This document shows positions 47,701 to 56,700 of a stretch of 64,000 bases of DNA, piece after piece. A model generated the notes under the pieces. The model searched no databases. It saw only the letters and a list, made by a program, of their open reading frames with translations, and was not told the origin of the DNA. The translations under genes were made by a program, and so were the position numbers. The stretch's first letter is position 1, and every line of letters starts with the position of its first letter. The DNA lies in the NCBI GenBank assembly GCA_030141605.1, contig JAQGDQ010000509.1, positions 95,511-159,510 on the forward strand, written 5' to 3'. This DNA is from Tubiluchus corallicola. Its lineage: Eukaryota; Priapulida; Priapulimorpha; Priapulimorphida; Tubiluchidae.

Positions 47701-50700
47701 TTACCAAAAATGCCTTATCGCAAATGAAATTAATGGTCTAATTCATTTTGCAATAGGGCGTCTTATGAACTTCTTCAGATGGCTCTTAAGGAGCCTACTG
47801 CGGATTGTGGCTGACATCTAATGGAAGGCAGACGACGGCAGGAAAATGGCAAATGGATTATTTGTGTGACAGCACCGCTGGTTAGCATACGTCCACTTTT
47901 CATGAGGCGGCTTTTTCTCTTCAGGCCTTAATGTCATCATACTCAAGAGAGTTCCGCTAGAGACTGAAATAAACAGGGTTTCACATAGTTCATACACAAC
48001 GTAAATAACCCAGCCTAAACAATTTCATTTAACTAAAATTTAAGTCCCCTACTTGTGAAGCAGTGTGCATAAGTTGAACTCTTCCATCTTTTAGTGCTAC
48101 CATGTGTATTCCCATGCGCTGTAACAACAACATGTGATTTTCATTACCAGCCTCAAATTCGCTTGCTCTCAGCTTCCTCTTCCTACATAACAACAAAAAC
48201 AAAAAAGGAATTTCAAATTAATAAATTAAGAAACTGACAAACAGCTAAGTATTGTTCACATAAATCCCTCATTTAGGCAACACCTGAAACTATTAGTTCT
48301 GTTTAGACAATCTTGTTGCCTTGTTGATTTTTGACATGAAAATAAATGTTAACAAGGATTATATGACTAACTGCTAGTACTTATATACACAAAGTCAAGT
48401 ATGCATATTTAGAAAAAAAACTTTGCCCACAAATTAAGCAAAAATGCTAATCAAGGTTTTAGTTCCATCTCTAACCGGTCTAATTAAATATAGATAACAT
48501 GAAAACGAATTCCTTCCAAAATGCAAATGTCGGAGCAAAGACACAATCAAATGTGGAATGCTTTTTTAAATTAAAGCTCAGCAGTGAAATGTGGTAAAAT
48601 TATAAGCCACACAGCACACATCAACAGGAAAGTGACACATGCAGTACACTCAAAGGAAAAGGAAAATTTTTATTTTTTAGCTATGTCCCAACTACAGTAA
48701 CCAACCATAGATCATTGGTCATTTAAGTATAATATATATTCCGGATTGCCATTACATAAAAGTTAAAAAAATAAATAACAGTAATAAAATTTACATTTGT
48801 TTTGGTTTTGGACACTGGTTTTCTACCATGTCCTTCAAAGGTTCTCTGACTTGATGTGCGTAATTAACATTTCCCGAGAAAACATTTCTGGTATTCGGAC
48901 ACGTTCGTCTGTACATTTGGTGAGAGTACTTATTTGTTTCTTCAAAGTCGTCTAATTCTTCTTCTTGAAAAGTATCATATTCACCAGGCTAAAGTAAACA
49001 AATTCGACATTCAGTGACTGAAAAGTAATCAAGAGATGAGCAGTAATTGATTGTGAATAGTGAACACCTTTAGCCATGTTCTACGATAAATGCTAAATTT
49101 GAATTTCATTTATTTTATCTTTTAAGTGGACAAGTCATCTGTTGATTGATAAAGGAATAGTCAAGCAATTACAAGCAACTACTTTTATTACTCACCACGA
49201 TGAAGGAAGCATTTAGCATGCTTTTCGGAAGATTTAGAGGAATGAGATGAGCTTCAGTTGTAAAAATGTAATTATCAACATCAATTAGCAAATCATCTTT
49301 TTCAGCAAACAAGAGATAAAGATATTTGAATAGTTCAGCAAGCACAAATGAATCCATTCTAAAAAATAATGAAAAGAAAACTGTTGTTATTTGCAGTACA
49401 GAATAGAACATAAGCCAGATGTTCGTTACTTCTAGAAAGAGTGTTAATTTATAACATAATGGGTTTTCAGTTATTTCATTTGAAAATAATAAAAACTCTT
49501 CTGAAGTAAGGGAGCAAAATTAGTTTAGAATCACTAACTAACAAGTTAAAAACGTTCATAATTTGCATGGTATTAAACTCTTTATGTCGTCAGACTTTTT
49601 AGTTTAGATGTCTAGGAACACTTGAAACTGAGGAAAGCACTACCAAAAACTTTAAACCACTGGTCATGCCTTTACACCACTGGTCAGATTTCAAAGAATT
49701 TCAGTATGACACATTCTGATGGTAACAGTTTGATATTTTATTTGCACGGCACTTAAATTTTGAGCAAATTGTTATAATCAAGTTGTTTGCTTCATGAACA
49801 AGTGCTGCAGTTCTACTGCGTCGATCTAGTTGTATTCTGGGCTGGTGATATGAAGTGAGTTCAATAAATATGTCGGCTTTGAATGTCTCTCAGACAGGCA
49901 GGCAGGCAGACAGACAGACAGACAGACAATAATTTAGTAATGAAAGTGTGATAAGCGCCTCGTGTAATTGGTGAAATCACTTTAAAGTTGCAATCATTTC
50001 ACGTTTGGGTGCTCACATTTTGAACGCCTATTCGGCTTCAAGTTTATGAGCCAGCTTGCCTTTTCATGCTGTTTTCAAGTATACTTGTGCAAAATATTTG
50101 TACCTTTGTTAAACAATACTAAATCAGAGTTTTTGTCCAACATTAAAGGCAAATTGGACAAGTGCGATAATAGTAAGACAAATACAAAAATCTGGTAAGG
50201 TCTGCAAAAAAATAAGGACCTTTTTGATGATATGTAAGAGAAAACCAGAACCCAAGTCGTGACTCAGAATGGTAATTAATTACCAATCTGGAACATTCCT
50301 ATGTTAAGTGCAAGCTAATCAAATAAGGTTATACAAATGGTACCTGTCTTCGTGACTGCCAGTTCGGACATCTTTCACGCCTGCGAAACCACATGGAACT
50401 CTAGCATAATTTTCAAGATGATCCAACACGTCTTTGCCAACATCTAAATAGTAAGGATCACCAGTGGCCTGAAATAAATCAAAATCAGAGATAACACTAG
50501 TATTTTGTGTAATAAAAAACGAAACTGCATTTACATATGGACTACATTTCTATGTAATTACTGTTTGCTAGTCAATTAGTAAGGAAGCAATATTACTATT
50601 TGCAATAATCCTTATTAAAGTTCCAGTGGGTAAATGAAAAAATGCACAGTTTATAACACTGCTTACAAACAGTTCTCTACCTGCCTTAGCACGCCTACAA

Positions 50701-53700
50701 GATATTCCATTAACTTGCACAAAAAAACAAAGCATTAGTCTAATGCCTTACATTAGGATAATTTTATTTGTTTTGCTAAAGCGTTTTCATAAAATTTTGG
50801 TTTCTTTGTGTCATACCTTGCATTGTTGTAATCAGTTTTTCAGCTCACCATAACAGCGGGTTAACAATGACACTATCAACCAAAGGGGAGTATTTGCGTA
50901 TGTTAGACCGCTTACACATCACTCAAGAGATTACCCGCTTTTTGAGTTTAATATCAAAATTTAATTAATTGTGGGTTTATAACATTATGGATGTCAATGT
51001 TAATGCTAAGGCTACAGAAGAAGATTTAAAATTATATAGTACAGAGACTGAAATATGCATCATGTTCAACAGAGCATAAGAAATATAGGCAAACTTTTCT
51101 GAAAAAGCAAAATTATATACTCGCAATAAATTTTACCTTATAAATAAAATATGTGCTTTCAATGAACTCAGGTCGAAGTGGATGCTGTCCCCAATACACC
51201 TTGAACTCTGTTGTAAAAGCCTCTGGTAGGAATTTGTGCCTTCGCATTACCTGGTATAACATTTCATGTGTTTCAATTGCTGGCTTTATGTCACCAAATA
51301 ATACCTGCAACAAGGAATCAAACTCTAATTAAAATGAACAATAAGTAACAATTTTGTGTAGAAAAATAAAAAAAGAGACTCATATGTGCAACATCTAGCC
51401 ATGATCCGTTTATGTTAATAAATTCATAAGTAAGCGAACTTATTTGATATAAATCACATTATGTAATCACACAAAGATGCACACGAATTTTGCAAGAAAA
51501 TGATTGCATGACAGAAGAGTGAGGTCGTTCCATCTGTTTGTTTGTCCTGTCTATCAGTTTGCTGGGGTAGCAGTTAGCAAAAGGTAGAGCAAATGCCATA
51601 AACATTGAGAAACTGAGATAAAAAGAAGTTGGAAGTTTTGGTAATCATACGATCAACCCATCCGTCTGCAAATACACAGATAAAAGGTCTAGAGTTAAAG
51701 TCACAGAGTTATTTTTGCTCATTAGTCCATCTGAAGAAGCTATATTTTGGAAACTGATAGTTGCTATACTATCTTAATGTGAATATTGCTTAAGATTTTC
51801 TGTACTTTACGTAAAAGCTTTGAGGCCACTGGTCAAGATAATAGTGAAAAAAAGAATACACTATTATATTACTAAAAAAATGTATAGATTGGTAAGACTG
51901 TTAACCTTAAATGTCTCCCTACTTGTCACAAATGTACAAAAATGACAGGGCAGACTCAGAGGAGTCAAGAATACTGAGGTGCAGAACTGCATCTGTAGAA
52001 ACATAATCTGTCACATTCTTTCACTTCAATATAAATTTGTCCATATGAGATTTCTACATTGCAAGAGATAACACCACTTCCCATACTGTATGCTAAATAA
52101 ACTACCTTAACAGGATGTTGCCTTGCGTTGTCATGAACAAATGTTTGACAGTACTACCATTTTAGTAAACTGATATTAAGTTCTAAGAATGAACACTTTT
52201 GAACTACGGTGTAGGTAAGTGAACAGTAAAACTGCCTTTTAATACATGTAGATAACTTATATAGAAAATTAATTTGCAATTAAAAATTGTTGTTAAGCAA
52301 ATATGTCCTACTTCATTTGACAAGGAATTCAAAATGCACTTAGCCAGGGAAGGGAAAATAAATAGATAAAAATTTGTAAGCAGAAAATGAGTGGTTCAAA
52401 TTGTAGAAAAGTTTCAATGCATTTTTTATTTACCCATTTAAAAGCTTCTTAAATAATCTATAGTGCCAAACGTGTATTGATCATCAGTTTTATTTACAAA
52501 CATATAAAAGTTTCTCTTCGGTTATATAAAACACTGTATCATATGAAATTAACTTCAAGAATGTAGATCCTAATGTACCTAATGACAAAAACTGAAAATA
52601 CATAATGCAACTCAGACAGCTAATTTTGCTGTGTAGGAGAGCATTGCCAGAGGATCATGAAGCCGTATATAACATCAATCCCATGGTGCACAATGGAGTT
52701 GATTGTCTCATTAACGAGAGGACATATCGACATATAGTTACACGTCCATATAATTATCCGTATGTGATGCAAATTAATGACAAGATAGTAAGTGATTTTG
52801 TCTGTGTATGGCATAAATATCAATTGCGGCATTATGTTTCAAAAACGTATGTTAATGATTAAATGTCCTTCAAAGAAATAATGATTATGTAAGGTCAGCG
52901 ATTCGCACTGAATTTGACTCACAAAATTGACTTAATAGTTGAGATGAGTAATCATAATTTATTCATTTTTTATGCACTGAGAAATCATGAATTAGGTGTA
53001 ATTCAGATCTTCTAGCAAAGTGAAGTTTGAGATGGGAGTTCAAGGTTGGTACAAAAATTTAACATGCTATATAGTACAACTAAAGCTAGCTTTTAAAATG
53101 AAGCTACAATGAACAACTAACACAGGTGAACAATTCTGAAAAATTTTGACAGGCATCCTTTCTAATGATTACAATCCTAGATGGAAGACAAACAGCTCTT
53201 GGCAGATTTGGTCGCATACACGTTGACCATCAAAACTTAAACCTCTTTACTGACATGCGCAACCACATGAAGAAAGAAATCCTGCCTGAAGAAAGGAATA
53301 TAACTCAGTGCATTGGACTGACCAGGCACGAAGGCCCGAATCCAATACTTCCTAAACATTATAAGCTATTGGACATAAAGGTTAGAAACATTCATGACAT
53401 GTAAATAGTTAAGTAATTATTGGTCTTAATCTGAACTGTGCAAGAAAGTATAGGGTTATAAAAGATTTTTTGTGTATTTAGGTAATACTTAGATTTAGAT
53501 GTTGGTCACCCAAACAAGTACTGTTTGAAACTGAACAATGTGCAGGCAATGTTTCACAGCTGAGCAGAGATGAAGTAAAAGAGTTGCTGACTGCACCAAC
53601 ACTGGCACAACGTTGTTTGTTCGGTGACAGGGTGCTGATTGATTACATTCCATATAAGACTATTCCAGAAAACTATGCCATGATTATGGAAAACGAAAAT

Positions 53701-56700
53701 CCAGTAGCATTTAGTAATTCTTCGAGAACATCCATAAGCTTTGGAACTTCTTATGAGTTAACGATAGGCACAATCAGATATAAGGTAGACATTTATGCCA
53801 AAAACGACACAGAGTCAGTGGCTCATTTACTAGCACAAGTAAAATACGCAGCAGAAATGTATTCAGATAAAATAATTATATTTCTTCCATGTTTCACAGC
53901 AAAATATACTTATGATTCAACAGAAAGAAACAGAATAGAATCAATGGCAACCAAAATTGGTCTTGTTAAAGAAAATGTATCTGGATTAAAAGATCCACAC
54001 ATCATGACACTAGAAATGCTAATAGATCATCTACAGAATTTCACTGATTAAAAACATATGAGTTATACTGAATCAAAAACAGGTAATTAAACAGTAAATT
54101 AAAATCGTAAAACTTTTACATAATTTTCCCACATTACATACGATTGCTGTTTATATAGTTTTAAAAATTAACACAAAATTTTCGCATATTAGATAAATTT
54201 CCATCCATGTATAAGTGTAAATTTAACCTCACTATGCAAGAGAGTCATGTGTGGAAAGATACGAGGGCATGTTTCTAAGAATGCTACATGTGTTGAGAAA
54301 GGTCGTAACATAGAACTAATATAGCTCATTTTGACTAGCGTTTTTCTCAGTGCTATAATAAGTGCATTTTTAATGTTCAGTGAAAATGGATTTTGTCTTC
54401 TAAATCATTCAAGTGTTTTCACTGGTGACTACGGAGTAGAAAGAAAAAAACCTCTATTGCAAAAAGTTTTTTATCGCTGTAGTGAGAGGAATTGTTGGTG
54501 GCATTTTTGTCATTTTCATGAGTGATTAGAAGAGCGATATTGCTCCTCAAAGTGATTAATATTTTTAAAGGCGGTTTTTCCGCACCATCGTTGCAGCGAT
54601 CTCTTGCCAGTGCAATTTACAAAAGTTTTTTCTCACTGTGGTAATAGACGTTTTCACAGGCGTTTTTGTTGTGATATTGCCAACAGCAATAAACTCGCTG
54701 CTTTTAGAAAATCGCTAGTCAGAATAGGCCTTAAACATTTGATCTAGTCTGTGTGTATACTATACCTGCAGACCTGGCCAAAAAGCAAGAAGAGAGTTCA
54801 TGAAATTCTTAGCAGCAGTATTTGGGCGATGCATATGCACATCCAGTAACATGGGTCCTTGACTTACATACTTCATTATGGCATTGTAATGCTGCAGAAT
54901 AAAACTAGAAAAGTTAGTAATATGAAAGGTAATAAATGCTTCATCTGATAAAATTTGTTTTATCTAGGTATGTTCTACTCTGTTTCAGGTATACTGAAAA
55001 TGTGCTACAGCTAAGTATGTATTATAATTGTTATGTCAACTTTCTAGATTCCTTGTTATAGGTCACAACTGTGCCAAGTCTGCCCCAGCACCACCACAAA
55101 ATTCCAAAATTATCACTGTTTAACTTGTCTCATGACAAGTTTTGAAACAATGTACTACACTGAGTAGTTGCATTCTTTCTTACCAAAAATCACACTTTTT
55201 TGAGCCCCACCCACAGAGGTTGCTGAACTAGAACTCTACACCAGTTATCACTTTACCTATGTTTAGGCAACCAAGTGTAGGAGACAGCTTCCAAAACTTA
55301 TTGCAAAAAATGACCTTTGACCTTGAAGCACCCACCCAAGGTCACGGATAAACCAACAGAAATCATTCCCGTGTTTGGGCCAATAAGCTGTCAAAGTTTC
55401 TTTTTCCAGCTCTTCATAGTCTACCAAGTTATTAACTGATACCAAAGTCGTAACAGAAATAAATAAATGATAAAAAACGAAAGCAAAAGCATTCACTGTA
55501 CATTGAAATACCAACAAGCAAATCTGCTGTTATAATAGGGTCACTTACTTACTTGGATATGTAGTGCTATTGACCAGTGCTATATCACAGAAGCCAAGTT
55601 TTTATTTTTGTTAATGGTAAGTAGCCTGTAATAGATGCTCTTAAAATGCATACATGTGACTGTTTGTCTGCAAATGAAATTACACTAATAGATATTAATA
55701 CATGTAATCAAATTCTGTGTCTTGCTGTAATGTATTAAATTAGAGGAACATTTAAAAATCAAACTGTAGTAAGTCAACATAATTAAAAAGTTGATACAGC
55801 ATTTTAGTGTGGTATAACTTAAATGAAATGAAAATAAGAAAAAGGAAATAACATTACTGTTATTGTGGTGGCCATATTTTATTGTATTTTGTTTAAATTG
55901 CTAACTGATGTTATTTTGATTAATGTATTTTTAATCAGAAAGCAGATAAGAACAACTGCAGTCAGGCACACAAAATATTAAGTGTTAGATATAGCTAGGT
56001 AAATAGCATACATTCTTTTCCTACAATTTTAAAGAATGACATCTCTGTTTTTAACAGTTGAGAAACTACTTCTGTACTTCTGGTCTATTTCAATGGTCTG
56101 CTCCAACTAGTTTCTTTTGTTAGAGAGTGGCAAGTTCTGACTTTTCTCATAGTACTATCCTTGACTATGAGTCAGGTTCAGGTCTTACCACAATCATCAA
56201 TATCAGTAAATTTAGCATAAGGTCCCAGATACCTGCAAGCAGTATGTTGGACAGTTAAAATTGTTTACTGAATAGCACAAATAATATTGCTTTCATTTTA
56301 TCTCCATTCAGAAACTTTTGCAAATAGATTTATCAACACCTACGAACTTTGTATATTAACTGTATTAAAATGTACATGTACAAAATGCACTGTATTAAAT
56401 TGTATATTAACTGTATTAAAATGTACATGTACAAAATGCACTGTATTAAATTGTATATTAACTGTATTTGTGTATTAAAATATACAAAACTAGGTCGCAT
56501 CCACACCATACCCAAATTTAATACGTATGTCTTAAGAATTGCAGAATAATGGAACATAACTTTACGTCATCTTGCCAGAGCTCGAAAGTCATTCTCTAGT
56601 GGCCAATACCAGATCATATACACAAAGTCTAATTTGATAATGTCAGTGACTTGAAGAACACACACGTTATATGACAGAAGGGAAGTAACATTTTTTGAAC

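Follow-up and report, generated by a model that had tools for sequence, protein, structure and literature searches.

Human HisAT (NAT16) carries an N-terminal GNAT domain followed by a Hisat_C domain (9EMD, 9EMO; PMC12219266). According to the crystal structure report, the N-terminal half binds acetyl-coenzyme A (acetyl-CoA) via the β4-α3 loop, Tyr74 and Trp246 hold the histidine between them, and the residues Tyr74, Tyr79, Gly123, Leu124, Arg131, Gly134, Ala136 and Trp246 serve as substrate, cofactor or oxyanion-hole positions. When bacterial, archaeal and mammalian HisAT-type structures were compared there, several active-site features appeared conserved, and non-vertebrate eukaryotic sequences were in some features less vertebrate-like than archaeal ones (PMC12219266). 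Here we describe a gene at positions 52189-54051 of a 64,000-nucleotide stretch of the Tubiluchus corallicola genome (contig JAQGDQ010000509.1; this whole stretch is called the window) that, judged from its sequence, is a member of the HisAT/NAT16-type double-GNAT family, and whose ligand-site positions differ from those of the human enzyme.

A HisAT-type gene nested in an EDEM-type intron

The largest exon of the gene, at 53482-54051, matches the Pfam family PF24066, Hisat_C ('Histidine N-acetyltransferase, C-terminal'), in an hmmscan search with an E value of 7.1e-14 and a score of 52.2 bits (curated cut-off 27), a match that by itself does not prove enzyme activity. The same domain is found in all 11 of the rows scanned, out of 21 modelled from this genome (see below), and Acetyltransf_1 matches weakly in 6 of these 11 (best E 0.0029). 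Human HisAT/NAT16 is the best solved relative of profiles built from the paralogues. Specifically, a profile of 11 of the 21 rows, including the window gene (alignment A1), places the human crystal structures first (9EMO, E 5.9e-16), and a profile of 8 of the 11 rows in the window's own clade (alignment A2) also places NAT16 first (E 5.4e-5). Profiles containing the window copy align exons 2 and 3 to the N-terminal domain of NAT16, which puts an N-terminal GNAT domain ahead of Hisat_C, by profile only, in the same order as in the human protein; the 11-row profile aligns up to the Trp246 region within the second domain.

The original prediction, made from the letters of the window alone, had proposed an undescribed spliced gene with motifs of no known family. 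The Hisat_C match refutes the second part of this claim. The prediction had named a lack of homologues beyond close relatives as counting against a real gene, and human NAT16 is by profile such a homologue. The supposedly undescribed gene is now placed in a family whose human member was characterized in 2025. That exons 1 and 2 of the original prediction alone match no Pfam family would fit an undescribed family with a chance Hisat_C match. This explanation is extremely remote and already refuted, given that the score is almost twice the curated cut-off, that every scanned row carries the domain, and that both profiles place NAT16 first. A RhoGAP match of the window protein was rejected because its 13.9 bits lie under the cut-off of 24.5. 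The protein has no match in NCBIfam (E <=1) or PADLOC (E <=0.01), exon 4 has none in a phage collection searched by tblastn, and a search of exon 4 against the PDB yielded nothing relevant, with one match at E 1.2.

The corrected gene model comprises four exons on the plus strand that encode 324 amino acids, and the joined translation is open. Its features and those of its host are as follows.

52189-52214, plus strand: proposed start exon, with an ATG and seven further codons (MNTFELRC) plus two bases of a split Arg codon
52605-52636, plus strand: probable end of intron 1 with its 3′ splice site, where the original prediction began its exon 1; an AG acceptor precedes an Arg codon, as in the paralogues
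52637-52787, plus strand: exon 2, opening portion of the N-terminal GNAT domain, with His and Cys aligned to HisAT Tyr74 and Tyr79; acceptor TGTAG/G, donor GTAAGT; resembles paralogue exons
53153-53380, plus strand: exon 3, the acetyl-CoA-binding region within the N-terminal GNAT domain; AG acceptor; placed by profile alignment to 9EMO/9EMD and by the residue table
53482-54051, plus strand: exon 4 with the stop codon, second GNAT domain, PF24066 Hisat_C by hmmscan, with Tyr aligned to Trp246; acceptor ATTTAG at phase 0
51305-54765, minus strand: host intron of 3461 base pairs in a GH47/EDEM-type gene, from GH47 exons, tblastn, a motif scan and splice borders
51137-51304, minus strand, and a second exon with its low-coordinate end at 54766, minus strand: flanking exons of the host gene

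The frames 52605-52787, 53153-53380 and 53482-54051 of the original prediction do join in frame over GT..AG borders into 326 codons and a stop. Its frames and borders have thus held up, whereas its first ten codons (discussed below) and its count of three phase-matched junctions have not, there being only two phase-0 junctions in the model. The further claim that the frames differ in composition from the surrounding intron is true of its first two exons, which have G+C fractions of 0.386 and 0.412 against 0.267-0.331 for introns and flanks, but only slightly so of the last exon, at 0.353. The frame of 189 codons exceeds the maximum (155 codons) observed in 1000 mononucleotide shuffles of 51330-54760. 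An intact, spliced, protein-coding gene on the plus strand looks real, as had been proposed, and the existence of paralogues with the same layout is stronger proof of it than the phase argument originally given.

These paralogues are numerous. The 343.5 Mb assembly contains at least 21 Hisat_C places, at least 19 of them over the cut-off, and on this count the window gene is one of about twenty Hisat_C paralogues. A search with the protein of the original prediction gave 43 exon matches at E <=1, three of which are the window itself, and matches to its exons 1 and 2 lie near many of the Hisat_C places. We modelled 21 rows (the window and 20 other places), with exon borders placed by hand. The first core exon is present in 18 rows, the second in 19 and the last in 20, and one copy, C2307, is intronless. 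Across these models the two core exons hold 49-52 and 76-81 codons. Donors were set at Val codons by hand, so their GT is given by choice; GTRAG is found at 11 of 18 first donors, the window included, and at 9 of 19 second donors. An AG precedes the second core exon in every one of 19 models and the last exon in 18 of 20 (the exceptions are C1795c and C1048).

The nested, antisense position that had been claimed is also borne out, with the host assigned at the level of an EDEM-type gene. GH47 exons lie on the minus strand at both sides of the gene, and all four exons of the corrected model fall within 51305-54765, antisense to the host. This placement draws on EDEM-like exons from elsewhere in the genome used as tblastn queries, on a scan for EDEM motifs, and on a direct reading of the splice borders. 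Of the interpretation first offered, the nested antisense spliced gene therefore stands and the undescribed family does not.

Ligand-site positions in the window copy and its clade

Human residue numbers were obtained by adding 41 to the 9EMO chain index, which puts all eight tabulated residues on the right letters in the profile alignment. In the resulting residue table, all eight of the HisAT ligand-site positions compared are changed in the window copy. The histidine-binding residues Tyr74, Tyr79 and Trp246 are replaced by His, Cys and Tyr, and the acyl-CoA-binding residues Arg131, Gly134 and Ala136 by Gln, Asn and Phe, such that the loop RGKGVA of human HisAT reads QNLNLF in exon 3. The β-bulge pair Gly123-Leu124, whose contacts run through backbone amides in the oxyanion hole, is Phe-Gly in the window, Ala-Arg in C1048 and Ala-Ala in C1024a.

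In the family as a whole, 15 of the 19 rows that have a residue at the place of Tyr74 retain it, 8 of 19 retain Tyr79 and 5 of 21 retain Trp246; the loop glycine is present in 11 of 20. The tree draws on all 21 rows, among them C2018 without a first core exon, C2102 with the last exon only, and C1307 and C1480, which score below the Pfam cut-off. It unites 11 rows in the window's clade at 100/99 support. All 11 lack both Tyr79 and Trp246, and 7 lack the acetyl-CoA loop glycine, which C36, C1820, C1795a and C2307 keep; most of the copies stay open. Tyr74 is absent in the window copy alone within the clade, and this copy is the most altered member at the compared positions. It shares 23-33% identity with the seven same-clade paralogues aligned with it. 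Exon layout in the clade (C1024c, C36, C1820, the C1795 cluster, C2307, C1307 and C1480) is that of the window gene, except in intronless C2307.

Of the rows that have a residue at each of the four places, only C1024a and C1048 keep Tyr74, Tyr79, Trp246 and the loop glycine. C1048 by itself also finds NAT16 in the PDB (E 8.1e-11), and it is our candidate for the true HisAT of this genome. If the altered clade is functional, then C1048 would serve as a natural active control, and a double-GNAT scaffold whose active-site features are reported to appear conserved (PMC12219266) would have been reshaped in one animal lineage. We consider it possible, and nearly an even matter, that the HisAT family has expanded in this invertebrate and that the 11-row clade consists of HisAT-derived pseudoenzymes or of acyltransferases with new substrates. 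No report of an invertebrate NAT16-like expansion was found in the open-licence literature, and print beyond that scope may hold one.

Retention of the gene and its possible function

The reading that best accommodates these data is that the window gene is very probably a retained HisAT-type double-GNAT paralogue, an intact four-exon gene that has been neofunctionalised or is catalytically dead. It would be an altered variant within a known family, and with its corrected start it looks real. Judged by homology, a single cleft is expected where the two GNAT halves meet. Because both the loop glycine and the clamp residues are changed, histidine acetylation would be lost, with N-acetylhistidine presumably no longer made by this protein, and the scaffold would be kept, its cleft now serving another ligand or a non-catalytic role. 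That the cleft serves a different small amine or acyl donor is plausible, if a little short of probable; a non-catalytic sensing or scaffold role is conceivable but more doubtful; and retained HisAT activity, whether weak or full, appears unlikely.

Is the copy simply a decaying duplicate whose frame is still open by chance? The eroded active-site positions could be read in this way, and other copies do look damaged, with C1307 and C1480 stopping early in the last exon. However, in the tree of 21 rows the window copy sits on an end branch of 0.92 changes per column, with a highest identity of 31%, and 316 core codons nevertheless remain open with fitting splice sites. In simulations in which 10% of sites were changed at random, just 1.55% of copies stayed open, and at 20% none of 2000 did. 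Codon positions 1, 2 and 3 agree with those of C1024c at 0.46, 0.54 and 0.35, compared with 0.27-0.28 for shuffled codons, and this order of conservation (2 > 1 > 3) speaks against decay. The intact frame on so long a branch, together with the codon-position pattern, argues for protein-level constraint through most of the history of the gene, and a pseudogene is accordingly a very improbable explanation.

An ordinary, active histidine N-acetyltransferase would fit the Hisat_C domain and the profile homology to human HisAT over the N-terminal domain and into the second. It would also fit the fact that, at half of the positions changed here, the paralogues most like HisAT differ from human too. 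Yet the other half (Tyr74, Tyr79, Trp246 and Gly134) are the places that C1048 and C1024a both keep, and the window protein does not find NAT16 by itself as C1048 does. We regard ordinary activity as quite improbable, albeit less so than decay.

A number of observations weigh against a retained paralogue that has lost histidine acetylation. Replacement of Trp246 by Tyr retains an aromatic side chain, Gln in place of Arg131 is a usual GNAT variant, and several of the ligand contacts are made by the backbone. Gly123, Leu124, Arg131 (to Gln) and Ala136 are changed also in the two rows that most resemble HisAT, C1048 and C1024a, so the changes at these four positions in the window say little; of the acyl-CoA positions, the lost Gly134 is the telling one. 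The structural report names Val126, Thr160 and Phe63 as well (PMC12219266), and these lie outside the residue table. Searched by itself against solved structures, the window protein (326 amino acids) gives no match at E <=10, and its N-terminal half scores with none of the GNAT models of Pfam. Single-sequence structure prediction from exon 4 only is poor (mean predicted local distance difference test score, pLDDT, 43), so we infer retention of the double-GNAT fold from homology. Finally, selection on the branch of the window copy itself is deduced from the intact frame and the comparison with paralogues.

The start of the gene and features of other copies

The original prediction began the gene at the ATG at 52605, and its first ten codons are most likely intron. 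In the paralogues an AG directly precedes the first Arg codon of the exon, although for C1024c an acceptor two codons further upstream is likelier. Of 19 such frames, 9 contain no in-frame ATG after the preceding stop and ahead of the conserved motif; for these reasons the ATG at 52605 is probably intronic. Counting against this view, an ATG lies 9-12 codons upstream in three paralogues, C1024c, C1820 and C1024d, just as it does in the window. The case illustrates how gene models can be misled by an in-frame ATG located in an intron.

The start exon is likely to be 52189-52214, with exon 2 beginning at the splice acceptor. The donor of this start exon, AG/GTAAGT, agrees with the consensus at 8 of 8 positions, lies in the right phase behind the ATG, and is the sole 8/8 donor listed in 50500-52634. 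A donor of this quality in phase with an ATG arose in 27 of 3000 Markov-1 sequences modelled on 51305-52634. Support comes from candidate short start exons upstream of other copies. The pattern M-x-[STN]-F-R, followed by a donor that agrees with the consensus at 7/8 positions or better, occurs in 5 of 17 rows (C1820, C1795a, C1795b, C1795d and C174) and never appeared when the 17 were shuffled 100 times, though the pattern was picked after the scan had been seen and 2 of the 5 sites are distant from the acceptor, by 1375 and 2495 bases. The start exon of the window is longer than this five-residue paralogue type and is not identical to it. MDGKRI[DN]P is common to C2339 and C1024b. The scan gave no convincing start exon for C36, C1795c, C1477, C1024a or C1024d, and no candidate within the roughly 600 and 530 bases of upstream DNA of C1307 and C1480. 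The window copy would have 8 residues before the split Arg codon, compared with about 50 before the GNAT fold in human HisAT.

The intronless copy C2307 (263000-266500) has an open frame of 366 amino acids and reads MISFRRATVDDY, as if a start exon had been joined, and it may be a retrocopy or an intron-loss copy. Alternatively, the TTTTAG in this region might be an unspliced acceptor.

C1307 and C1480 are near-identical Hisat_C copies (99% in shared upstream DNA) in which the last exon stops early and continues in another frame; they may be damaged duplicates, or else an assembly duplicate or error. Contig C1795 carries at least four Hisat_C genes in tandem at about 10-56 kb. Additional matches to the first exon are at 26.8, 34.3 and 41.7 kb, and every one of these matched stretches contains a TAA, which may fall outside the exon. 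Upstream of the Hisat_C exon of C2102 (400-3900), at about locus positions 670-1550, is a long stretch resembling a tandem repeat, with units like LREKLQNRSHVATSCERSCKTVHTLQQVA, that is open in several frames.

Human HisAT is described as cytosolic. Five of the 21 rows (C36, C1048, C1024d, C174 and C2102) end in SKL, AKL or SKM, which we take to resemble a peroxisomal targeting signal of type 1, and the window copy ends in FTD.

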